Of a stretch of 29,968 nucleotides of DNA, positions 2,738-25,444 are shown in pieces. The notes under the pieces were generated by a model, which worked only from the letters and a program-made list of their open reading frames with translations, searched no databases and was not told where the DNA came from. Positions within the stretch are counted from its first letter, which is position 1, and each line of letters opens with the position of its first letter. Source of the stretch: a virus; IMG/VR virus record IMGVR_UViG_3300009481_000062, positions 1 through 29,968 of that record, one strand, 5' to 3'. Position numbers and translations under genes: made by a program.

Positions 2738-2997
2738 TGGATATAGTATATCTAATCGAGACCTTTGGGTTCGAGATAGTCTTAATAGTAGGGTTAGGTT
2801 ACTTTGTTTACTATGTTTGGAAGACGATAACAGATGTTATCAAACCAGCATTAGACAATATGAAAACAACCATAATAAGGTTAATCGATCAACTACGGTT
2901 GCTCGACCAGGACATGATAAGACTGCAGAAGAAAGTAGAAACTATCATGCAAATGAAAGAAAATGAAAAACGAAAACAACGTAAGGGACAGGATTGA
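2737..2997 (+). CDS. Small membrane protein with coiled-coil tail (86 aa)
   Basis: One membrane span (about residues 8-29, TFGFEIVLIVGLGYFVYYVW) precedes a leucine/isoleucine-rich helix with coiled-coil character (42-72) and a very basic C terminus. The ATG overlaps the stop of the preceding gene (TAATG). The layout of N-terminal span, coiled coil and basic tail resembles small phage membrane proteins of lysis or injection modules, but no family motif is visible. It overlaps the csgF-like gene by 35 bases. Confidence 0.6.
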   Translation: MDIVYLIETFGFEIVLIVGLGYFVYYVWKTITDVIKPALDNMKTTIIRLIDQLRLLDQDMIRLQKKVETIMQMKENEKRKQRKGQD

Positions 2998-3466
2998 AGT
3001 TGCCGCTCTTTGCAGTTTATTCTTATTGTCCATAAGCGCTGTTCACGCAGATGAACAGGTACACACATTCAAAAATCCGTCATTTTCTGGAATAGGTACG
3101 TCTGCACATTATTTGACTATCGAAAACCAGGAAAAATCAAGACGAGACAAAATACGAGATGATATCGAGGCCGCTCTAAAAGCCGCAGAAAGAGAAGAGC
3201 AAAACTCGACACTCGCCAAATTTATTAGAAACCTAGAATCAAGAATATATGCTCAATTGTCTAAGCAATTAGTAGACAATATGTTTGGTAACGATGAAAC
3301 AAGTTATTCTGGTTCTTTTACATTAGAAGGTAATACAATCACATACCAAAGAACTGAACAATGTCAGGAAGATGGTGTATGTATTGAAGTTATTATCATG
3401 ACTATTACAGATAGCGAGGGAAGTGAAACGGTAATTACCATACCGATTGGTACTGGAGGATTCTAA
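2963..3466 (+). CDS. csgF: CsgF-like curli assembly protein
   Basis: CsgF binds the CsgG outer-membrane channel and couples secretion to fibre nucleation. This product (167 aa) starts with a signal peptide (hydrophobic residues about 14-28, cleavage likely after VHA-DE). The mature N terminus reads HTFKNPSFSGIGTS, closely matching the FRNPNFGG segment of E. coli CsgF that inserts into the CsgG channel. A variable charged helical middle (50-105) and a C-terminal beta-rich domain follow. The gene lies directly before csgG with stop and start overlapping, the usual pairing. It is longer than E. coli CsgF (138 aa), mainly in the charged middle. Two cysteines (residues 134 and 139) sit in the beta domain. 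Confidence 0.8.
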   Translation: MKNENNVRDRIEVAALCSLFLLSISAVHADEQVHTFKNPSFSGIGTSAHYLTIENQEKSRRDKIRDDIEAALKAAEREEQNSTLAKFIRNLESRIYAQLSKQLVDNMFGNDETSYSGSFTLEGNTITYQRTEQCQEDGVCIEVIIMTITDSEGSETVITIPIGTGGF

Positions 3467-4332
3467 TGCTTAGAGCATTTTTACTACTGATTCTATTATC
3501 GGGTTGTGCAAGTGTGCCTACTATGAGGGAGTTCGAAAATAACAACTGTAACAACGAGGTTAAAGATGTTGTAACTCTTATAGATAGGGCAATTCCATAT
3601 ACCTGTGTAGAAGAAGCAGAAATTGTTCAATTACCAACTTATCAACAATTATTAGATTTACCACCAGCCGTAAATAAGCCAATAGTCGCAGTTTATAACT
3701 TTCAAGATTTAACAGGACAAAGAAAGCGTAGAGACAATCTTGCTGATTTTAGTACTGCTGTAACACAAGGTGGAACAGAGTTATTAATTGACGCACTTAA
3801 AACTGCTGGTGGCGGAACATGGTTTCGCGTAGTTGAAAGACACGGTATTGACAACCTTGTACGAGAAAGACAGATTATAAGAAGCACACGAGAAGAACAT
3901 GACGAAGACAAAGGTTTACAGCCTTTGCTTTTTGCAGGTATATTACTAGAGGGTGGTATTATAGGATTTGATACTAACATGGAATCTGGTGGTAGAGGTG
4001 CAAGATATCTTGGAGTAGGTAGAACAGTATCTTACAGAAGAGATGTAGTAACAGTAAGTCTTAGAGGTATTAGTACATTAACAGGAGAGGTCTTACTTAA
4101 TGTACAGACTAAAAAGACTATTTTATCAGTTGGGGCCGGATTTGATGTATTTAAATTCATTGATATGGATACTGAACTGGTAGAGTATGAAGACGGTGTA
4201 GCAGAAAACGAAAGTGTTACTGTTGCAACGCGTGCGGCTATTGAGGCTGCTGTCCTTGCGCTAATTAAGCAAGGGGACAAAAGAGGCTACTGGGAAATCC
4301 AGGAGCGTAAGGGAGAGAACGAAAATGATTAA
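3466..4332 (+). CDS. csgG: CsgG curli secretion channel lipoprotein
   Basis: CsgG forms a ninefold outer-membrane channel that exports curli subunits. The product (288 aa) has a lipoprotein signal with lipobox LLSGC (Cys14). Strong family matches follow: VAVYNFQDLTGQ, DFSTAV, a WFRVVER-like stretch, NLVRERQIIR, GGIIGFDTN, GGRGARYLG, KTILSVGAG, FKFID and RGYWEI. These run across the whole family length, so the gene looks intact. In the constriction loop the phenylalanine corresponding to E. coli Phe56 is kept (ADFSTAV). Asn55 reads Asp, and the Tyr51 region is basic (RKRRDN), so the pore lining probably differs. It overlaps the following curlin-like gene by 8 bases. Confidence 0.93.
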   Translation: MLRAFLLLILLSGCASVPTMREFENNNCNNEVKDVVTLIDRAIPYTCVEEAEIVQLPTYQQLLDLPPAVNKPIVAVYNFQDLTGQRKRRDNLADFSTAVTQGGTELLIDALKTAGGGTWFRVVERHGIDNLVRERQIIRSTREEHDEDKGLQPLLFAGILLEGGIIGFDTNMESGGRGARYLGVGRTVSYRRDVVTVSLRGISTLTGEVLLNVQTKKTILSVGAGFDVFKFIDMDTELVEYEDGVAENESVTVATRAAIEAAVLALIKQGDKRGYWEIQERKGENEND

Positions 4333-5041
4333 ATTATTAGTCGTTAGCGCACTACTCACTGCAGGTATGTTGTATGCAGATACTACTGACAATGAAATTT
4401 TCATTGAACAAAGTGGTGATAACTTGACGCTTACAATTGACCAAGAAGGTTTTGGAAACAAATTCTGTGGAACTATCTCATCAGGGGCTTGTGCTACTGA
4501 TATGACAATTACAGGTAGTAACATAACATTTAACCTTGACCAAATCGGAAATAGTAATCAACTGTTTGGCCCGATAGTACTAGACTCTAGTAATATAGAT
4601 ATGGTATTTACTGGTGACTCAAACATATTTGACTGGAATATTGGTTATATTGGCTCAGCAGATAACATGGATTTAGATTTAACTGTAGTAGGTGATTCTA
4701 ATACATGGGACTTTGATGTAGGCTATAACCAATCAGCAGAAAGTTTTGATTATGACCTTACATTAGTTGGTGGAACAAATGTATTTACTACACTTGTTGA
4801 CTCTGACAATGTTAAATGGGAACTTGATTTAACTGGAGATGGAAATGATTTCAACACTACTCAGAAAGACGCAGACCAATCATTGGTTGTCGAGTATAGT
4901 GGTGACGATGGAAACATTGACATTGTTCAGGAATCTGGTACTTGCCCTACAGGGGTAACTACATGTTCAGGAGTAATTAACCTAGACATCACTTCAGACG
5001 ATGCAACTATTACGATTAATCAAAAAGATACTTCCGACTAG
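4325..5041 (+). CDS. Curlin-like repeat protein, likely CsgG substrate (238 aa)
   Basis: A signal peptide (MIKLLVVSALLTAGMLYA, cleavage before DTT) is followed by repeats of about 20-30 residues of alternating polar and hydrophobic strands. The repeats carry curlin-style motifs: IEQSGDN, IDQEGFGN, LDQIGNSNQ, GDSN (twice), GDGN and a final TINQ. This fits a CsgA/CsgB-like beta-solenoid built from strand-turn-strand units. Asn/Asp ladders are stronger than the usual Gln ladders, and the protein is very acidic. Two Cys pairs (48/56 and 207/214) may close turn loops. It follows csgG directly. I infer it is exported by CsgG; whether it makes amyloid is untested. Confidence 0.72.
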   Translation: MIKLLVVSALLTAGMLYADTTDNEIFIEQSGDNLTLTIDQEGFGNKFCGTISSGACATDMTITGSNITFNLDQIGNSNQLFGPIVLDSSNIDMVFTGDSNIFDWNIGYIGSADNMDLDLTVVGDSNTWDFDVGYNQSAESFDYDLTLVGGTNVFTTLVDSDNVKWELDLTGDGNDFNTTQKDADQSLVVEYSGDDGNIDIVQESGTCPTGVTTCSGVINLDITSDDATITINQKDTSD

Positions 5042-6113
5042 TTTGGTAGTACCCTGTCTTCTATTCGCTGACCCGATTGGCGATATAGTTGAACAGACAG
5101 GTAAAGGCGCGCTTACAAGAAATAATGAAGAGTTTGTTGCCGTTGTTGACCAGGACATTTTATTATATGACTTGCTTAACACCGGCAACGGACGAATGAA
5201 AGTAGCGTTCTTAGATGACTCTAATTTACGACTAACAGAACACAGTAGAGTTCTAATAGACGAAGTTATCTATGACCCAAATCCATCTAAGTCAAAGATG
5301 GTTATGAAGTTTGCAATGGGTACTGCAAGATTTACTTCTGGTAAACTTGCCAATATGAACAAAGCAAACATTAGTATTGAGACTCCTTCAGCACAGATTG
5401 CTATAAGGGGTACGGATTTTACTACTACAATAGATGAACTAGGTAGGTCACTAATAGTTCTTCTACCAGACGAAAATGGCAACGCGTCTGGAGAAATAGT
5501 AGTAATGAATGAAGGTGGAGAAGTTACACTAGACCAAGCATTTCAAGCGACTATGGTTTCAACGATTGCTAGTCCTCCAGTAGAACCTGTGAAGATAGAG
5601 AATGTAACAGTTGCACAAATAGACAATCTGTTTATTGTCAGTCCACCAGCAGAGATAGAACAAGCAGTAGAAGAAACAAGAACAGAAAACAGTTCTAGTA
5701 ATATTCTTACTACTGATTTTTTAGAATTTAGTGAATTAGAAACTGACTACTTAGAAGAAAGTGAAGACTGGAGTTTCTCAGAGTTAGATATTGATTTACT
5801 AGATGTAGATTTTTTACAAGATTTATTAGAGATAATAGAAGAAGCAGACTTGCTTGATAGAAAACGAGGAGAAGGATTTAACCAAGTTAACATTGTCGGT
5901 ACAAGACCTGGACTTGACCCTGATACTCAGTATAACACTATTGTTGATGATAGCGGACAAATCTGGTTTTATAGACAGGTTACTGGTATAATATCTATTA
6001 AGTTACCTATCGATGCAAATGCTAGTATTAGAACTATAACAGACGAGAAAGAAAGTTTGATTACCGTAGGAGACGGTGAATCAGTTAACATAATTATAAG
6101 GCAGACGAATTAA
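5001..6113 (+). CDS. FecR-domain periplasmic protein
   Basis: The product (370 aa) begins with a signal peptide (cleavage near FA-DP, residue 23-24). A FecR-type domain follows (about 25-165): the repeat-like GDIVEQTGKG, a LLNTGNGRMKVAFLDDSNLRLTEHS-type core in pieces, then FTSGK and IETPSAQIAIRGTDF. FecR domains are periplasmic beta-rich sensing or scaffold modules. A very acidic segment (about 225-285) and a C-terminal beta region (295-370) are not recognised. It overlaps the preceding curlin-like gene by 41 bases and the next by one base, so it is embedded in the curli-type cluster. In bacteria, FecR-domain proteins of this kind are, as I recall, often encoded next to CHASE2-cyclase genes; one lies about 2 kb downstream here. 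Confidence 0.82.
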   Translation: MQLLRLIKKILPTSLVVPCLLFADPIGDIVEQTGKGALTRNNEEFVAVVDQDILLYDLLNTGNGRMKVAFLDDSNLRLTEHSRVLIDEVIYDPNPSKSKMVMKFAMGTARFTSGKLANMNKANISIETPSAQIAIRGTDFTTTIDELGRSLIVLLPDENGNASGEIVVMNEGGEVTLDQAFQATMVSTIASPPVEPVKIENVTVAQIDNLFIVSPPAEIEQAVEETRTENSSSNILTTDFLEFSELETDYLEESEDWSFSELDIDLLDVDFLQDLLEIIEEADLLDRKRGEGFNQVNIVGTRPGLDPDTQYNTIVDDSGQIWFYRQVTGIISIKLPIDANASIRTITDEKESLITVGDGESVNIIIRQTN

Positions 6114-7960: not shown

Positions 7961-8207
7961 AGGGTTTAATAAACCAAAAAGAACACCTGGTCATCGAACC
8001 AAATCACACATTGTTGTTGCGAAGGTTGGTAACAAAGTAAAGACCATTAGATTTGGACAACAAGGTGCAAAAACTGCTGGTAAACCAAAGAAAGGTGAGT
8101 CAGCAAGAATGAAAGCAAAAAGAAAATCTTTCAAAGCAAGACATAGAAGAAATATTGCTAAAGGCAAAATGTCAGCAGCATACTGGGCAAATAAAGTTAA
8201 GTGGTAG
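7917..8207 (+). CDS. Basic phage protein, PKRTPGHRTKSHIVVAK family (96 aa)
   Basis: The ATG at 7917 is preferred to one at 7824 because the product from 7917 (MARKKDPRLKRAG) fits a known small family. Features are PKRTPGHRTKSHIVVAK, TIRFGQQGAKT and a C terminus with SFKARHRRNIAKGKMSAAYWANKVKW. I know this arrangement from marine phages and some large DNA viruses, without function (possibly DUF6321). The end overlaps the GTG start of the cyclase gene. Confidence 0.75.
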   Translation: MARKKDPRLKRAGVRGFNKPKRTPGHRTKSHIVVAKVGNKVKTIRFGQQGAKTAGKPKKGESARMKAKRKSFKARHRRNIAKGKMSAAYWANKVKW

Positions 8208-9994
8208 GAAGATTATTTACTTTATTTGTAGGATTATCCATGCTAGCATTATTAGCATGGAATCCATACCCACTAAAAGTTTTAGAATTAAAAACATTCG
8301 ACTGGTTAATTATGAATACAGAACCAGTACAAAACGAGAATATCCTGCTTGTAGATTTAGATGAAGAACTAATCGAAGCATACGGAGGATATCCACTTCC
8401 AAGAACTTTCTTTTCTTCAGCAATAAAGAAAGTAGAGGGTGTTCCAGGCATAACAGTACTTATGCCAGACCCAGACCTAAGAAATCCAGACAACGATACT
8501 GAACTAGCAATGACTATGACTTATAAACCAACAGTCTTGGCTTCAGCAGTAACAAATCAATCAGATAAAATATCAGCCTTTGTAGGCACAGCACAATTAG
8601 GAGAGGACCCATTACCATGGCTATATCAATACCCAGGAATTTTACGTACAGAGTCTATGCTGGCAACAAGCGCAAAGGGACTCGGAATAGTAACCGCTAC
8701 GCCGGAAATAGACGGGGTTACTCGTCGTATGCCCCTAGTCGTAAACGTACAGTCAAGACTCTACCCAAACTTCGCACTAGAACTCTTAAGACTAGGCGTA
8801 GGAGACCCGTCGTACCAAATAAAAACAGAAGAACAGGGTATAGTCTGGGTTAGAATACCCAACTATCCGAATATCAATACTGACCAGAACGGGAGAGTTT
8901 TCCTCAACTGGAACACCAAGTTTTACAGACAAACTGCTGCAGAGTTTATGAAGGAACCGATACCGGCTCCTTTTGTAATATTTGGTGTTACGGCGGAGGG
9001 AATCAGTAATCCTGTACCAACTCCATCAGGCCCCAAGTATCCACACGAACTACAAGCAAATGCACTTCACAACTTTATAGAAGGAACAGCCCCATCTATA
9101 CCTCAATGGGCTCCGAGCGCAGAACTAGCAGTAGGAGCATTAGTACTAATTATTTTAGCACTTACTAGTGGTATCATCTGGTTGAGTGCTCCGATACTTT
9201 TACTAACTGTGGGAGGTTTATCTTATGGTACCTGGTATGCTTACGAATCTTCTTACTTGCTAGACGTCAGCGGAATCGTAGTCATCTCGATTTTGTTTTG
9301 GAGTATTGTAACTTTCCGTAATTTCATTACGCAATATTTGTTGAGATTACAGATCAAACAACAATTTGGAACGTATGTTAGTCCCGCCTTGGTTGAAAAA
9401 TTACAAAATAACCCAAAATTACTGGAACTGGGTGGCGTTACGAAACAACTAACTTTCCTTTTTTCGGATATCCGAGGATTTACCCCGATTTCTGAAAAAT
9501 ACCAAAAGAACCCACAAGGACTTACTACTCTGATTAATCGTTTTCTTGACAATCAGACTGAGATTATACTCAAACACGGGGGTACAATAGATAAATACAT
9601 GGGAGACTGCATCATGGCATTTTGGGGTGCGCCACTCCCTGACGAGAATCATATACAAAATGCGACTAACGCTGCTATTGAAATGAGAATAGCATTAGGA
9701 GAATTAAATGAAAGACTCAGAGAAGAAGGCCTGGATCAGATTAATACAGGAGCGGGAATCAACACGGGGGACTGTGTCGTTGGAAACTTTGGCAGCAGCA
9801 CTCGCTTTGATTACAGTGTGCTTGGTGATAGCGTCAATCTCGCTGCTAGGTTAGAATCTAGTTGTAAAGAGTATGATGCTGACTTGATAATTTCCGAGTA
9901 CAGTTTGATAGAAGGTTATGACTACGAATTCCTTGACGAAGTAACTGTCAAAGGTAAGTCTGAACCTGTTAAAATCTATACCATACGAAAATAG
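8201..9994 (+). CDS. CHASE2-domain class III adenylate/guanylate cyclase
   Basis: The product (597 aa) is a membrane sensor cyclase. Order: N-terminal span (4-20), CHASE2 extracytoplasmic sensor (about 25-300), three spans (about 308-330, 331-347, 356-378), then a class III cyclase domain (415-595). Catalytic residues are present: metal-binding Asp423 (FSDIRGF) and Asp469 (DKYMGD), Lys465 and Asp537 for purine choice (fits ATP), and transition-state Asn546 and Arg550 (DSVNLAAR). It should therefore make cAMP. The GTG start keeps the whole first span. An ATG at 8240 has a better ribosome-binding site (AGGA) but would cut that span. A complete sensor cyclase is rare cargo for a phage. Promoter P2 begins just past its stop. 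Confidence 0.93.
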   Translation: MVGRLFTLFVGLSMLALLAWNPYPLKVLELKTFDWLIMNTEPVQNENILLVDLDEELIEAYGGYPLPRTFFSSAIKKVEGVPGITVLMPDPDLRNPDNDTELAMTMTYKPTVLASAVTNQSDKISAFVGTAQLGEDPLPWLYQYPGILRTESMLATSAKGLGIVTATPEIDGVTRRMPLVVNVQSRLYPNFALELLRLGVGDPSYQIKTEEQGIVWVRIPNYPNINTDQNGRVFLNWNTKFYRQTAAEFMKEPIPAPFVIFGVTAEGISNPVPTPSGPKYPHELQANALHNFIEGTAPSIPQWAPSAELAVGALVLIILALTSGIIWLSAPILLLTVGGLSYGTWYAYESSYLLDVSGIVVISILFWSIVTFRNFITQYLLRLQIKQQFGTYVSPALVEKLQNNPKLLELGGVTKQLTFLFSDIRGFTPISEKYQKNPQGLTTLINRFLDNQTEIILKHGGTIDKYMGDCIMAFWGAPLPDENHIQNATNAAIEMRIALGELNERLREEGLDQINTGAGINTGDCVVGNFGSSTRFDYSVLGDSVNLAARLESSCKEYDADLIISEYSLIEGYDYEFLDEVTVKGKSEPVKIYTIRK

Positions 9995-19961: not shown

Positions 19962-21194
19962 ATGTCATTTTTCTTTAGTAGAGATACCAAAGTATTCATG
20001 AAGTTCCATGCAAGTGCAGATGGCACTGACGATGCACTTTATGAAATACCAGTACTTGATGGCTTTTCTTTCAGTCAAGCGACTAATAGTACTGAGGTAA
20101 CATTAAACGAGGCGGCCGATTCTAGCGGAAATAGTAAAAGAGGTAGAGCAATGTTCAACGATTCTTTTGCACCAGCAGAATGGTCTTTCTCAACATATAT
20201 GAGACCCTCCGTTTCAGATTCTAGTGATACTTATACTATCGCTAGTGGAGAAGGTTCTCACGCAGGTAACGCAAAGAAATTTGCAGTTGAAGGCCCATTA
20301 TGGGCAGCCATGAGTGCAACAACATATAACTTAGGAGTAGGTGGAACAGGAGCCCCTACACTGAATACATTTGAGCCAAATAGTTTTAACTTTCAAAACT
20401 CAAATAAAGTAGCACTAGGTGTATTTGATTTATTCTTCGTACTCGGAGCAAGTAAAGATACTGATGGTACATATACCTCAGGGTCAGGTGGAGTTATGAT
20501 TTACAAACTAGAAAGTTGTTCAATCGGCTCTGCTTCTATTGACTTCGATATAGAAGGAATAGCACAAGTAGCATGGTCAGGGAATGGTAAGTTAATTACT
20601 GAACAAGCAACATTAAATACAGCCGCAGGTCAAGCAAGTACCAAAGGGCTTATTAATGAAGGTATCAGTTCAACAACCAATTTCATAAGACAAAAATTAA
20701 CAGACTTAGCAATAGCATATGATGCTTCTGAATCAACTGGTGATACCACAGGTATTGGTAGTTCAGATATAACATATTCATTGACATTAACAGGTGGTAA
20801 TATTACGATTGAAAATAATCTAACTTACTTAACTCCAGAATCACTGGGAACTGTTAATCAGCCACTAGGTCACGTAATGGGAACAAGGAGTGTTTCAGGT
20901 AACTTTACTTGTTACTTAAATGATGTTTCCAACGGTTCAGCAGACTTATTCGAGAATCTCGTAGAGTCAACTGGATTAATTACAAATGCTTTCGCACTAA
21001 CCTTTGGTATAGGTGGAAGTGGAAATACTCCAAGCGTAGATGTAGCAATACCGAAAGCGCACTTAGAATTACCTTCACATTCTATTGACGATGTCATTGG
21101 AATAGAAGTTAACTTCCATGGATTGAGTTCAGACTTATCGTCTGCAACTGCTTCTAGTAGTGCAAACGAAGTGAGTATTACTTACGACGCATAA
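19962..21194 (+). CDS. Major tail tube protein
   Basis: The product (410 aa) begins MSFFFSRDTKVFMKF. It carries YEIPVLDGFSFSQATNSTEVTLNE, RAMFNDSFAPAEWSFSTYMRP in pieces, and repeated beta strands. I know this wording from tail tube proteins of marine siphoviruses. A GGAG ribosome-binding site lies about 8 bases upstream. It is longer than lambda gpV (246 aa), with an added beta domain in the second half (residues about 230-410). It is followed by a strong hairpin, in keeping with high expression. Confidence 0.88.
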   Translation: MSFFFSRDTKVFMKFHASADGTDDALYEIPVLDGFSFSQATNSTEVTLNEAADSSGNSKRGRAMFNDSFAPAEWSFSTYMRPSVSDSSDTYTIASGEGSHAGNAKKFAVEGPLWAAMSATTYNLGVGGTGAPTLNTFEPNSFNFQNSNKVALGVFDLFFVLGASKDTDGTYTSGSGGVMIYKLESCSIGSASIDFDIEGIAQVAWSGNGKLITEQATLNTAAGQASTKGLINEGISSTTNFIRQKLTDLAIAYDASESTGDTTGIGSSDITYSLTLTGGNITIENNLTYLTPESLGTVNQPLGHVMGTRSVSGNFTCYLNDVSNGSADLFENLVESTGLITNAFALTFGIGGSGNTPSVDVAIPKAHLELPSHSIDDVIGIEVNFHGLSSDLSSATASSSANEVSITYDA

Positions 21195-21210: not shown

Positions 21211-21231
21211 GGTGGGGGTATTACCCCCACC
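21211..21231 (+). terminator. Strong hairpin after the tail tube gene
   Basis: GGTGGGGGT (21211-21219) pairs perfectly with ACCCCCACC (21223-21231) over a three-base loop. The following bases are ACACTTAAG, so there is no proper T-run. It may be a partial terminator or an mRNA-protecting structure that keeps tube protein level above the chaperone level. Confidence 0.6.
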
Positions 21232-21251: not shown

Positions 21252-21683
21252 TTGGAACAAAATAAACAACAACCAGTCTCACTAGCGAGTCTTTTAACTC
21301 CTAGTAAAACGGTAAGCGTTGATTATCCTAGTAAACCAGGATTTTCGATAGACTTAACTTATCTCGCAAGAGAAGAGTTACTAAAATTGAGAAATAAATG
21401 TGTTTCTCAAAAACTTAACAGGAAGACTAGAGCATTTGAAGAATCTCTAGATGAAGATAAATTTTTAACAGAGTATTGTAAAGCAGTCATTAAGGGGTGG
21501 ACAGGCTTAAAATATTCCTACCTCGAAGAACTTCTATTGGTGGATATTAGTAAACTCAACCCAGACGATGAATTACCTTGGAGTCAAGAAAACGCAGAAA
21601 CATTAATGAAAAATGCTGCTGACTTTGACACTTGGTTAACTGAAACTGTTGGTGCTTTGGAGAATTTTACCAAAGTCAAGTAG
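21252..21683 (+). CDS. Tail assembly chaperone (lambda gpG-like), TTG start
   Basis: The product (143 aa) begins at TTG, placed seven bases after AAGAGGA; no ATG fits. It has SLASLLTPSKTVSVDYPSKPGF, a folded middle (LAREELLKLRNKC) and an acidic C terminus. Position between the tube and tape measure genes is that of the chaperone G, which keeps the tape measure soluble. The end overlaps an open -1 frame that encodes a clearly coding extension, as in the G/GT pair of lambda. Confidence 0.82.
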   Translation: MEQNKQQPVSLASLLTPSKTVSVDYPSKPGFSIDLTYLAREELLKLRNKCVSQKLNRKTRAFEESLDEDKFLTEYCKAVIKGWTGLKYSYLEELLLVDISKLNPDDELPWSQENAETLMKNAADFDTWLTETVGALENFTKVK

Positions 21684-22087
21684 ATAGAATTCTAGTACTA
21701 CTTGACAGAGAATACACGGAAGGCGCTGTCTCATTAGACGCATATTTAAATATATGTGAACAACGAGGCATCGAACCTGACCCAGAAAATATGCCACCTG
21801 AATTTAGTGATTACCCGCACGAAGTTCAAGTGGCATTTTTAGTATATGCACACTTGCCAGATAGGTGGGACGGAATGAGTGGTATGAACTTTGGTAAAGA
21901 TTTAGCACCTTTAGGAACATTACTAGATATCTATCAAGTTCCCCTAGAGGACAGACCAATTACTTTATTTTTTATAAAACAAATAGAAGTAAGGAAAGTA
22001 GAAAAAGATAACAATGAGTCTAAGCGTAGACAAGAGGCAGAGAAACGTAAGAACAAGGCTTCTCAGAGCAATATTCGTAAGAGATAA
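21662..22087 (+). CDS. Tail assembly chaperone -1 frame extension (lambda T-like)
   Basis: This frame is open from 21644 and reads FYQSQVDRILVLLDREYTEG, then AYLNICEQRGIEPDP and a well-formed end (HEVQVAFLVYAHLPDRWDG and on, with a Lys-rich tail). It has no proper start codon with a ribosome-binding site before the ATG at 21791, and the residues before that ATG look fully coding. A -1 shift between 21644 and 21683 would make a G-T fusion. The start given is approximate. No classical heptamer such as GGGAAAG is present; GAATTTT (21662-21668) is the nearest candidate. Confidence 0.75.
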   Translation, partial: EFYQSQVDRILVLLDREYTEGAVSLDAYLNICEQRGIEPDPENMPPEFSDYPHEVQVAFLVYAHLPDRWDGMSGMNFGKDLAPLGTLLDIYQVPLEDRPITLFFIKQIEVRKVEKDNNESKRRQEAEKRKNKASQSNIRKR

Positions 22088-22090
22088 TTA

Positions 22091-25000
22091 ATGGCAAAAG
22101 TAAAAGGCGCACAACTAGTACTAGAGATTACCGATGACGGTACTCTTAAAGTAGTAGAACAAAAAGCAAAGAAGGCTGGAAAGGGCATGAAGAACATGGC
22201 CGAAAGTGCACACACTGCTGACCGTAGAATCAAGGGAGCAGCACAGGCATCATCAGGGGCTTCTAAAAACTTCTCTAAAATGGCACAAGGCATACAAGGT
22301 GGCCTTGTACCTGCTTATGCGACTTTTGCAGCAACAATGTTTGCTGTTGGAGCGGCTTTCAGAGCGTTCCAAAACGCTGCCGACTTCCAAGCATTACAAG
22401 CATCACAAGAGGCTTACGCAAATAGTACTGGTGTTATGTTAAAACAGGTAACAGCAGACTTAGCAGCAGCAACACAAGGACAGTTAGACTTACAGAAAGC
22501 CGGTGCCTCAGCCGCCATCATGATTGCAAAAGGTTTCAACACTGACCAAATCAATGATGTAGCAGAAGCCTCCGTAGCAGCCGCACAAGCACTTGGTAGG
22601 AACTTCGAAGACACATTCAATCGTATCGTTCAAGGTACAACAAAAGCAGAACCAGAACTATTAGACGAACTAGGTATCACACTTAGATTAGAAACTGCTA
22701 CGCGTAGATATGCTAACGCTATCGGTAAAAGAAGAGATGAACTGACTACTTTTGAAAGGTCACAAGCGGTTTTAAATGAAACATTAAGACAGGCAGCAGA
22801 AAACTTTGGAGCAATCCAAGGACAAGTTCCTGTTAACGCTTTCAATAAGTTACAAACAACAGTTACCGACTTAACTATGAGTTTCCAAACTTTCATAGCA
22901 CCTATTGCAAACTTCTTTGCAAATGTATTCTCAACTAATATTACAGCAGCAGTAGCCGCTATTGGTTTATTCGCTGTATCTATTATTAAACAGGTTATAC
23001 CTTCACAAGCAGAAATGGTAGCAGGCTTACAAGAATTTTCAAGCAGACATGACCAAGCATATAAAGATGCAACTGCTGACCTTGAAGCATATAATGCAGC
23101 CCAAAAGAAACTAAGACAGAGTGAAGCACAAGCAGTTGCAAATGCAAAAAGAACAGGAACAACAACTGCTAAAAGTATGGTAGCGGGTGGAGCACAGAGT
23201 CCAATATTACAAAGAGCCGCAACTTCAGGAATCGGTGGGTTATCTGGAACAGACAAAGCAAACTTAAATAAAGCACTAAAATCTGCAGAAGCACAATATA
23301 GAAAACATGGTAAGATTGTTCGAGGAATATTCAAAGGAATGGAAATCGACAAAGTCAGAATGTTAGACCAAAGTACAAAGCAGATGGCAGCAAAAAATAT
23401 GTCTTTCACACAGAAAGCAGGTATGCAATATGACATGATGAAACTTAAGTTTAAGAAAGCAGTAACATCAATGCAAGTTACATGGGGTAAAGGTATGGCT
23501 GCTATGGGAAGAGCAGGTATTAAGTTTGGTAATGTAATGAGTAAAGTTATGGGAGCAGCAGGGGTTATCGGTATAGTATTAATGGTTGTACAAATATTAA
23601 TATCAGCAATAAAAAATCTTGATAATATTATACTTTCTATTATGTCTGGTATAGGAAAATTTGTAGATTTTATAATTGGCATGTTCAAAGGATTAGTACA
23701 AAGACTAGCAAAAATAATAGGATATTTCAAAGAGTCAACACCAGCACTTGATGCACTTATAGTTAAATTAGATAATTTTAGTGCAGAAGAAGCCATGACT
23801 GAGTTTGGTAATTCAATAGTCGGCCCAGGTTCTGCAATTGGAGATTTTTTACAAGGGTCAAGAGATGCCGAAATAAGGGCGGATAAATTAGAAGACAAAC
23901 TAACTTCTATGGCAGAAAAAACAGCAACTCTAGCCGAGATGGAAGAAAAAAGAAACGAAATCGCAAAACGAAGAGTAAGAACAGCAGAAAAAGAACTAAA
24001 AATATTACTTGATAAGAAAAAGGCAGGAGAAGATGTAGATGAAGGCGATTTATTAGGACTAGAAAGAGATAGCCGCCTACCTGGTGGTTTTAGTTCATTA
24101 GAACAAGCACAATTTGAAGGGAATATATTAGGAACATCAGGTATTACAGGAGCATTAAGAGAGTTAAGGGCTGCCGAAGAAAGTGGAAATTTCAGTAGTA
24201 CACAGTTAGCAAGAATGCAGAATGGTGTACAAAACTTAATGAACGGCTTAATTGATGTTATTCCTGAAATGGAAATATTTAGAGATGTAACTAAAGCAGA
24301 TGCAGATGCAGTAGATGCTTTTGTTCAATCAAATATTAAGGCTGGACAAGGACTAAAAACACTTACACAAATTTCAGAGGAAGCAGAAAGAAGAAGAGCA
24401 GAAGCAACAAAAAGTGTAGGAAATACTTTCTTTGATAAAGAACTCTCAGGAATAAAAAGTTTAGTGAGTGTTATGGACGCAGTTAACAAAAAAGGTGCTG
24501 AATTAAGTGATAATGAAGCAGCAACAGTTGCAAAACTTATGGGTATGACAAAAGAGCAAGTTTTAAGTATGGGTCTTACTGAAGTTATTTCTCATGTTCA
24601 AGGTATACAAACAATGGTGCAAGGTGAAATAGATAGTGTCCAAACTAGAGCAATGGCACAGTTAGGAACTCAATTAGCAACAGCACGAGTTGGTTCAAGA
24701 AAAGATGCAGCCGCAGTAAGAATGAAAGAACTTATAAAAATACAAGATTTTAAAAACAAAGAGGCAGATATACAAGCAAAACTTAATGAACTAAACTATA
24801 ATCATAGCCTACTAGATGAAACAAAACAAGCAGCAAACACAAAGTTAATTAAACAAGAAGAAGAAAGATTAAAGATTGCTCAAGCACAAACGGAGCAGTT
24901 TGAAAAATCAACAGAAACAGCATTTAAACTTCAACAAACCTTTGCAACAGGACTTCAAAAAATGTTTGAAGATATAGCAACAGGGGCTGCTTCAGCAAAA

Positions 25001-25444
25001 GACGCATTTAAGTCTTTAGCAACATTAATACTACAAGAGTTAGTAAAAATAGCAGCACAAAAAGCCGCTATGGCAGCAATCAATGCAATGGGATTTGGTT
25101 TTGCAAACGGTGGTATAATACCACTAGCAATGGGCGGATACACAAAAGGATATCGTTCTGGTGGTGTAGTAAGTCAACCGACTTTCTTAGTAGGAGAGGG
25201 CAGATACAATGAAGCAGTTGTACCTCTACCAGATGGAAGAAGTATTCCAGTTGAAATGCATGGTGGTGGAAGTAATGTTGTTGTAAATGTGAATGTAAAT
25301 GGACAGGGTTCAGCACAAGTATCAGGTAATGGTGGGCCAAACATGGAAGCCATGGGTAAAGCAATAGCAGCACTTGTACAAAAAGAAATGGTAGAACAAC
25401 AAAGACCAGGCGGAGTATTAAGTCCGTATGGAGGTACTTCATAA
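22091..25444 (+). CDS. Tail tape measure protein
   Basis: The product (1117 aa) sets tail length. It has an N-terminal helical region with many Ala/Gln, hydrophobic segments (about residues 73-90, 275-300, 490-515 and 520-540), long coiled-coil parts, and a C-terminal domain with QELVKIAAQKAAMAAINAMGFG, then GGIIPLAMGGYTKGYRSGG, VGEGRYNEAVVPLPDGR. That last stretch is typical of tape measure C termini. At about 0.15 nm per residue the tail would be near 165 nm. It is the longest gene in the window. Confidence 0.95.
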   Translation: MAKVKGAQLVLEITDDGTLKVVEQKAKKAGKGMKNMAESAHTADRRIKGAAQASSGASKNFSKMAQGIQGGLVPAYATFAATMFAVGAAFRAFQNAADFQALQASQEAYANSTGVMLKQVTADLAAATQGQLDLQKAGASAAIMIAKGFNTDQINDVAEASVAAAQALGRNFEDTFNRIVQGTTKAEPELLDELGITLRLETATRRYANAIGKRRDELTTFERSQAVLNETLRQAAENFGAIQGQVPVNAFNKLQTTVTDLTMSFQTFIAPIANFFANVFSTNITAAVAAIGLFAVSIIKQVIPSQAEMVAGLQEFSSRHDQAYKDATADLEAYNAAQKKLRQSEAQAVANAKRTGTTTAKSMVAGGAQSPILQRAATSGIGGLSGTDKANLNKALKSAEAQYRKHGKIVRGIFKGMEIDKVRMLDQSTKQMAAKNMSFTQKAGMQYDMMKLKFKKAVTSMQVTWGKGMAAMGRAGIKFGNVMSKVMGAAGVIGIVLMVVQILISAIKNLDNIILSIMSGIGKFVDFIIGMFKGLVQRLAKIIGYFKESTPALDALIVKLDNFSAEEAMTEFGNSIVGPGSAIGDFLQGSRDAEIRADKLEDKLTSMAEKTATLAEMEEKRNEIAKRRVRTAEKELKILLDKKKAGEDVDEGDLLGLERDSRLPGGFSSLEQAQFEGNILGTSGITGALRELRAAEESGNFSSTQLARMQNGVQNLMNGLIDVIPEMEIFRDVTKADADAVDAFVQSNIKAGQGLKTLTQISEEAERRRAEATKSVGNTFFDKELSGIKSLVSVMDAVNKKGAELSDNEAATVAKLMGMTKEQVLSMGLTEVISHVQGIQTMVQGEIDSVQTRAMAQLGTQLATARVGSRKDAAAVRMKELIKIQDFKNKEADIQAKLNELNYNHSLLDETKQAANTKLIKQEEERLKIAQAQTEQFEKSTETAFKLQQTFATGLQKMFEDIATGAASAKDAFKSLATLILQELVKIAAQKAAMAAINAMGFGFANGGIIPLAMGGYTKGYRSGGVVSQPTFLVGEGRYNEAVVPLPDGRSIPVEMHGGGSNVVVNVNVNGQGSAQVSGNGGPNMEAMGKAIAALVQKEMVEQQRPGGVLSPYGGTS

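Follow-up and report, generated by a model that had tools for sequence, protein, structure and literature searches.

How is the second of two overlapping tail assembly chaperone frames reached in the virus record IMGVR_UViG_3300009481_000062? The material is a metagenomic contig of 29,968 bases from a marine phage, and this whole stretch is called the window below. The zero-frame chaperone gene, G (21252..21683, plus strand; phrog_313, E 2.4e-11), runs from a TTG start at 21252 to a TAG stop at 21681-21683 and encodes 143 aa. An open -1 frame, T (21644..22087, plus strand; phrog_3914, tail assembly chaperone, E 4.9e-18), is bounded by a TGA at 21641-21643 upstream and ends with a TAA at 22085-22087. 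Because the -1 frame opens at 21644 and the zero frame ends at 21683, any shift must fall in 21644-21683. The initial annotation had located both frame limits and this 40-base interval correctly. It had also seen no strict slippery heptamer, and a phase-aware reading of the overlap agrees: the 40 bases hold no in-phase strict X_XXY_YYZ sequence, and GAATTTT at 21662 is the nearest candidate. From this it concluded that a new slip motif or a different coupling mechanism was implied. We consider it highly likely from the sequence that the G/GT chaperone pair is made by ordinary -1 programmed frameshifting at a degenerate heptamer followed by a hairpin. The slip site, G_AAU_UUU (21662..21668, plus strand), is very probably a variant of the X_XXY_YYZ type, though not a strict member of it, and not a new mechanism.

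Relatives were collected by three protein searches of IMG/VR and a fourth with a wider alignment, which reached members via T5- and Vibrio-type sequences. The set is a sample, as the best 80 of 205, the best 80 of 543 and the best 80 of 504 confirmed relatives were kept. Removing identical 120-nt junctions reduced 173 loci to 84, and removing identical 90-nt junctions reduced 80 to 62. Counts for the -1 frame refer to 140 distinct junctions, the window included, within which 80 close junctions form a nested subset; four T5-like records and two Vibrio contigs with a +1 arrangement (L391 and L395) were excluded from them, and 23 loci from later pattern scans lie outside the 140. The sequences are related throughout, so the codon counts are not independent. 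We found no paper on this frameshift site in the open-access literature searched; the AAATTTT in the relevant part of PMC10299305 concerns an unrelated Wolbachia gene.

The alignment across relatives, which the initial annotation had proposed as a check, recovered both a canonical heptamer and a hairpin. Marine contigs from the first three protein searches encode G proteins 100 to about 72% identical to that of the window, and every one of the 87 loci from the first searches has the same frame arrangement. At the codons homologous to the window's slip site, relatives carry A_AAU_UUU or A_AAU_UUC: the 140 junctions read AAATTTT (132), AAATTTC (3), GAATTTT (3; the window, L003 and L158), GCATTTT (1) and TAATTTT (1). 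A canonical X_XXY_YYZ heptamer is present in 135 of them, and the Z_ZZN core, which allows full re-pairing of the A-site tRNA, is kept as U_UUU in the window and as TTTY in 140/140. As judged from this alignment, a canonical heptamer is the signal of the family, and GAATTTT in the window is a derivative that departs from A_AAU_UUU by a single base. With A_AAU_UUU in 132 of the 140 junctions, the proposal of a new motif loses its ground. A metagenomic contig might be suspected of an assembly or sequencing error, or the frame break might mark a decayed gene. However, the same -1 arrangement recurs in 140 distinct junctions, and three other contigs share the GAATTTT of the window, so the derivative is not a sequencing slip; an error or decay is a negligible prospect, already refuted as far as sequence can refute it.

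The codons of the slip site are unusually uniform. Among the 80 close junctions the slip Asn codon is AAT in 79/79 (one sequence has His), compared with 62/80, 68/80 and 60/80 for other conserved Asn columns. The slip Phe codon is TTT in 77/80 and TTC in 3/80, and other conserved Phe columns have TTT in 58/80, 68/80, 63/71 and 64/78. The Glu codon preceding the slip Asn (GAA in 75/79) is not unusual. Immediately upstream of the slip site, variation tracks the zero frame. Past the zero-frame stop, the mean column entropy of the -1 frame is 0.94, 0.67 and 1.30 bits at codon positions 1, 2 and 3; the third position is the most variable after the G stop, indicating that the -1 frame behaves as coding. 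Conserved T residues begin a few codons past the slip Phe, with Gln in 80/80 and Val in 79/80 close junctions (T codons 3 and 4 when numbering starts at 0). A -1 shift elsewhere in the overlap, for example at GCT_TTG (21654-21659), would make use of U_UUG, which is a weak tetramer in E. coli according to the motif data of PMC4066793. The Leu codon of GCT_TTG varies among the close junctions (TTA, CTA, CTG, TTG, CTT, CTC) while AAT TTT is kept, making such a site very improbable. An internal Shine-Dalgarno stimulator was also considered, as the GGA or GGT upstream of the site is Shine-Dalgarno-like in many relatives. We make no claim for it because the Gly codon varies (GGT 33, GGA 29, GGC 12 and GGG 2 of 80).

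Several relatives depart from A at the first heptamer position. Pattern rescans of IMG/VR for the GAG and GAT forms at the correct spacing returned 115 loci, 23 of which encode a G homologue: six GAG forms (five GAATTTT, one GCATTTT) and 17 GAT forms (TAATTTT). The hairpin is predicted in all 23 except L560, whose contig ends at the stop. The rescan added a further, more distant GAATTTT member (L524), and it revealed that the GAT AAT TTT form is no isolated case but frequent in one subgroup, although several of its 17 loci are near copies. Pattern scans with the spacer one base shorter gave no locus encoding a G homologue (0/195). On the G tree, which is weak because it has few columns, the window groups with L003 and, separately, L158 with L161, each with support, and L080 lies elsewhere. 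Since the tree separates these three, and provided that A is the ancestral state, the sample implies three or more losses of A at the first position. Such degenerate sites raise the question of how much decay in its P-site half a bacterial heptamer can bear without loss of shifting, and the tolerance of a decayed first base deserves a second look.

The second part of the signal lies immediately downstream. A 6-nt spacer (21669..21674, plus strand), defined from sequence and fold, separates the slip site from a predicted stimulatory hairpin (21675..21706, plus strand) in which 21675-21683 pair with 21698-21706 to form 9 bp. The arms, GTCAAGTAG...CTACTTGAC, enclose a small inner stem (21685-21687/21692-21694), and the main stem contains the zero-frame stop. 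The spacing generally seen for -1 stimulatory structures is about 5-9 nt. The hairpin of the window has a minimum free energy of -13.1 kcal/mol and a z-score of -4.46, with 0/200 shuffles as stable, and 0/174 other 40-nt windows within 300 nt match it in stability. Across the 140 junctions, the 48 bases past the heptamer have a mean z-score of -3.46, and 119 junctions reach -2 or lower, compared with 6/139 at control positions 240 bases downstream and 1/140 at positions 150 bases upstream. No Rfam family matched the window at its gathering score. Transcriptional slippage, adding or dropping a base on an A or T run, could draw on the AAAATTTT that the canonical relatives contain, but the longest single-base run at the window site is 4 T. 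Moreover, conservation follows the codon phase and an RNA hairpin at ribosome spacing, and we regard this explanation as extremely improbable.

Base-pair changes among relatives bear on whether the hairpin is maintained as a structure. With registers expressed as i+j, counted from the base after the heptamer, the longest pair run in the 80 close junctions always falls in one of two, i+j = 43 (27 junctions) or i+j = 34 (53 junctions); only 1/4640 other sequence-register combinations reaches 7 pairs. The two registers have a common upstream arm, CAAGTA, and downstream arms that lie 9 nt apart. The upstream codon is GTC in 25/27 junctions of the i+j = 43 register and in 0/53 of the i+j = 34 register. 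Over all 140 junctions, 60 and 54 fall in the two registers. In the first register, with 52 distinct members, 76.6% of cells pair, falling to 22.1-45.7% when the arms are slid by up to 3 columns. The weak pairs of this register are the two outermost, unpaired in 31/52 and 34/52, and the innermost, unpaired in 38/52. The 47 members of the second register have 96.0% of cells paired, against 31.5-48.7% when slid. Two-sided changes occupy 56 cells in the first register (shuffled mean 28.1) and 14 in the second (shuffled mean 6.5). The G tree requires 16 changes for the first register and 13 for the second, of which 11 and 12 are forced by well supported branches; two registers that interchanged so repeatedly deserve a second look.

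Several observations weigh against a heptamer and hairpin signal. The heptamer of the window is itself noncanonical, and the relevant sections of PMC4066793 deal with strict X_XXZ_ZZN heptamers and Z_ZZN tetramers, and so are not informative on the activity of G_AAU_UUU. The longest pairing lies outside both main registers in 26/140 junctions, and the z-score of the hairpin region is above 0 in 5/140. Among 40-nt windows within 300 nt, the hairpin ranks first in stability in only 20/80 close junctions. In L159, 49/174 other windows match it. A second stable peak, at about +126 nt, has a lower mean energy. Counted by pairs, two-sided change in the first register shows no excess (6 pairs, shuffled mean 5.8). 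Because the pair-change sets were picked by register, their paired percentages are inflated; both stem arms also encode protein. For these last two reasons, the energy and codon data weigh as much as the pair counts.

Taken as programmed frameshifting, the site would work as follows. Most ribosomes would read GAG AAU UUU ACC AAA GUC AAG UAG and release G at 143 aa. A minority would pause at the hairpin, whose stem begins 6 nt past the UUU codon, and step back one base. The tRNA-Phe could then re-pair fully, moving from UUU at 21666-21668 to UUU at 21665-21667, and the tRNA-Asn would move off AAU onto GAA, where its pairing at the first codon position becomes G-U in place of the A-U of a canonical heptamer. 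From standard anticodons, the P-site half would be weakened at this one position. After the slip, reading would continue with UAC CAA AGU CAA GUA and on to 22087, giving a GT fusion of 278 aa. The T part of the fusion, 139 residues, would begin with the TAC at 21668 and stop at the TAA at 22085-22087, and the predicted junction peptide is ..ALENFYQSQVDR... The frames, their homology, the conservation of the heptamer in relatives, and the predicted hairpin with its pairing changes are read directly from the DNA; from them we infer that shifting occurs in cells, its rate, and the tRNA pairings that matter. With the U_UUU core kept and a stimulator predicted 6 nt downstream, the argument for a new mechanism is further weakened. 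The initial annotation had the frames and the missing heptamer right, and it had overlooked the hairpin as well as the relatives' canonical heptamer. Its proposed new slip motif gives way to a slip site and hairpin signal that can be tested.

T might instead arise by separate or coupled initiation, from a conserved in-frame ATG (21791) or from some non-standard start close to where the zero frame stops. An in-frame ATG does occur at T codon 33-51 in 138/140 junctions, and most T5-like records annotate the downstream chaperone as a coding sequence (CDS) of its own. The initial annotation had held that a conserved start codon with a ribosome-binding site would speak against a shift; the ATG is kept, but a 4-base Shine-Dalgarno core at 5-16 bases upstream accompanies it in 0/138. 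Upstream of T codon 35, 94/140 sequences lack any ATG, GTG or TTG. Within that stretch, no start codon position downstream of the slip is common to more than 14/140 junctions, and 17/140 have one at codon -12, upstream of the slip. Starting at the conserved ATG would lose about 41 conserved domain codons, and separate initiation leaves the conserved heptamer and hairpin unexplained. Because start codons are mostly missing early in T and the conserved ATG has no Shine-Dalgarno core, separate initiation is a weaker reading than frameshifting and, in our judgement, an improbable source of T, although a minor extra product is possible. The ATG at 21791 also lies within a second conserved hairpin of the T frame, GCCAC(C)...(G)GTGGC (21791-21836). 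On the close junctions, where it was counted, 7 of 8 tested pairs form in 65/80; the pairs are mostly invariant, and coding constraint may explain their conservation.

The surroundings of the two chaperone frames match the G/GT arrangement. They lie between the major tail protein gene (19962..21194, plus strand; phrog_3575, E 6.7e-53) and the tape measure protein gene (22091..25444, plus strand; phrog_3779, E 7.6e-33, and others), and G and T themselves belong to tail chaperone families by their phrog matches. Against Pfam, the chaperone products gave no match at 0.01. By analogy with the lambda model, and from the family names, G and GT would act as tail assembly chaperones. In one relative, L054, the -1 frame stays open for 2999 bases past the G stop, approximately the rest of the locus, and a chaperone-tape measure fusion is possible there. 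Between the major tail protein gene and G lies a perfect 9-bp hairpin, GGTGGGGGTATTACCCCCACC (21211-21231), listed only as terminator-like on the minus strand.

Elsewhere in the window, further genes were noted. Curli-type genes, in a phage, occupy 2963-6113, with CsgF (E 8.9e-17), CsgG (E 1e-50), a curlin-repeat protein (E 2.1e-4) and a FecR-domain protein (E 3.9e-9). At 1107-1863, a protein with a NifU-like N-terminal domain (E 7.4e-40) adjoins an Fe-S biosynthesis protein (E 5.9e-13). A 597-aa protein at 8201-9994 combines a CHASE2 domain with an adenylate/guanylate cyclase catalytic domain. The 683-aa frame at 15150-17201 matches both a prohead protease (Peptidase_S78, E 1.2e-15) and major head proteins, which suggests a protease-capsid fusion.

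The named relatives of the chaperones in the phage collection are mostly T5-like (Demerecviridae), and their tail chaperones are homologous proteins whose second gene lies in a different frame. We fetched 19 T5-like records and read the junction in 18 (L364-L367, L448-L454 and L456-L462); L455, a partial Aeromonas record, was left out as it has no annotated G gene. The hosts are Escherichia, Salmonella, Klebsiella, Pectobacterium, Providencia, Proteus and Vibrio, and several records are very similar, so the 18 are not independent cases. In 18/18 records, the last Phe codon of the G homologue, TTT, is followed by CGT (13) or CGA (5), and the +1 frame holds the second gene; the Vibrio contigs L391 and L395 agree in having it in the +1 frame. 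The slip Phe of the T5-like records occupies the same alignment column as that of the window (the invariant F135). The window, by comparison, has T in the -1 frame and ACC after UUU. We propose TTT CGT/CGA as a candidate +1 programmed frameshift site in T5-like phages. According to the passage of PMC6256483 that deals with it, no frameshift signal is predicted for the Sugarland chaperone, as for that of T5. In GenBank, phage Shivani has a joined chaperone CDS, so at least one annotator has assumed a shift. It is conceivable, at somewhat less than even chances, that the working signal is a single Phe codon, UUY, with only the tRNA-Phe re-pairing, used for a -1 shift in the marine clade and a +1 shift (UUU_CGW) in T5-like phages. 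The idea builds on the several lineages in which G or U has replaced the first heptamer base while the hairpin stayed intact. If it is true, the direction of slipping has switched at a homologous codon, and T5 has a signal despite the printed denial; in any case, T5-like phages gain a concrete +1 candidate.

The +1 site of influenza A PA-X is UCC_UUU_CGU (PMC3498833, in the part describing the site). It has UUU_CGN in common with the T5-like sites, and the Pectobacterium phages My1 and DU_PP_V have TCC TTT CGT. This likeness is limited to the T5-like sites and implies no homology; the window shifts -1.

The slip sequence of phage lambda is G_GGA_AAG. Compared with lambda, a hairpin is predicted at the window site. 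The window pair resembles lambda gpG/gpGT, as described in the pertinent part of PMC5009743, in its place before the tape measure gene, the short zero-frame product and a rare -1 fusion, and the same role in tail assembly would be expected. In E. coli, efficient -1 motifs allow full re-pairing of the A-site tRNA, H_HH.U_UU.Y is among the most efficient groups of heptamers, and the tetramers U_UU.C and U_UU.U need a strong stimulator in order to shift, as given in the motif sections of PMC4066793. The H_HH.U_UU.Y group includes the A_AAU_UUU and A_AAU_UUC of the relatives. The site in the window differs from these motifs in having G as its first base and a noncanonical P-site half, and G_AAU_UUU is not described in the available sections of PMC4066793; it keeps the U_UU.U core.
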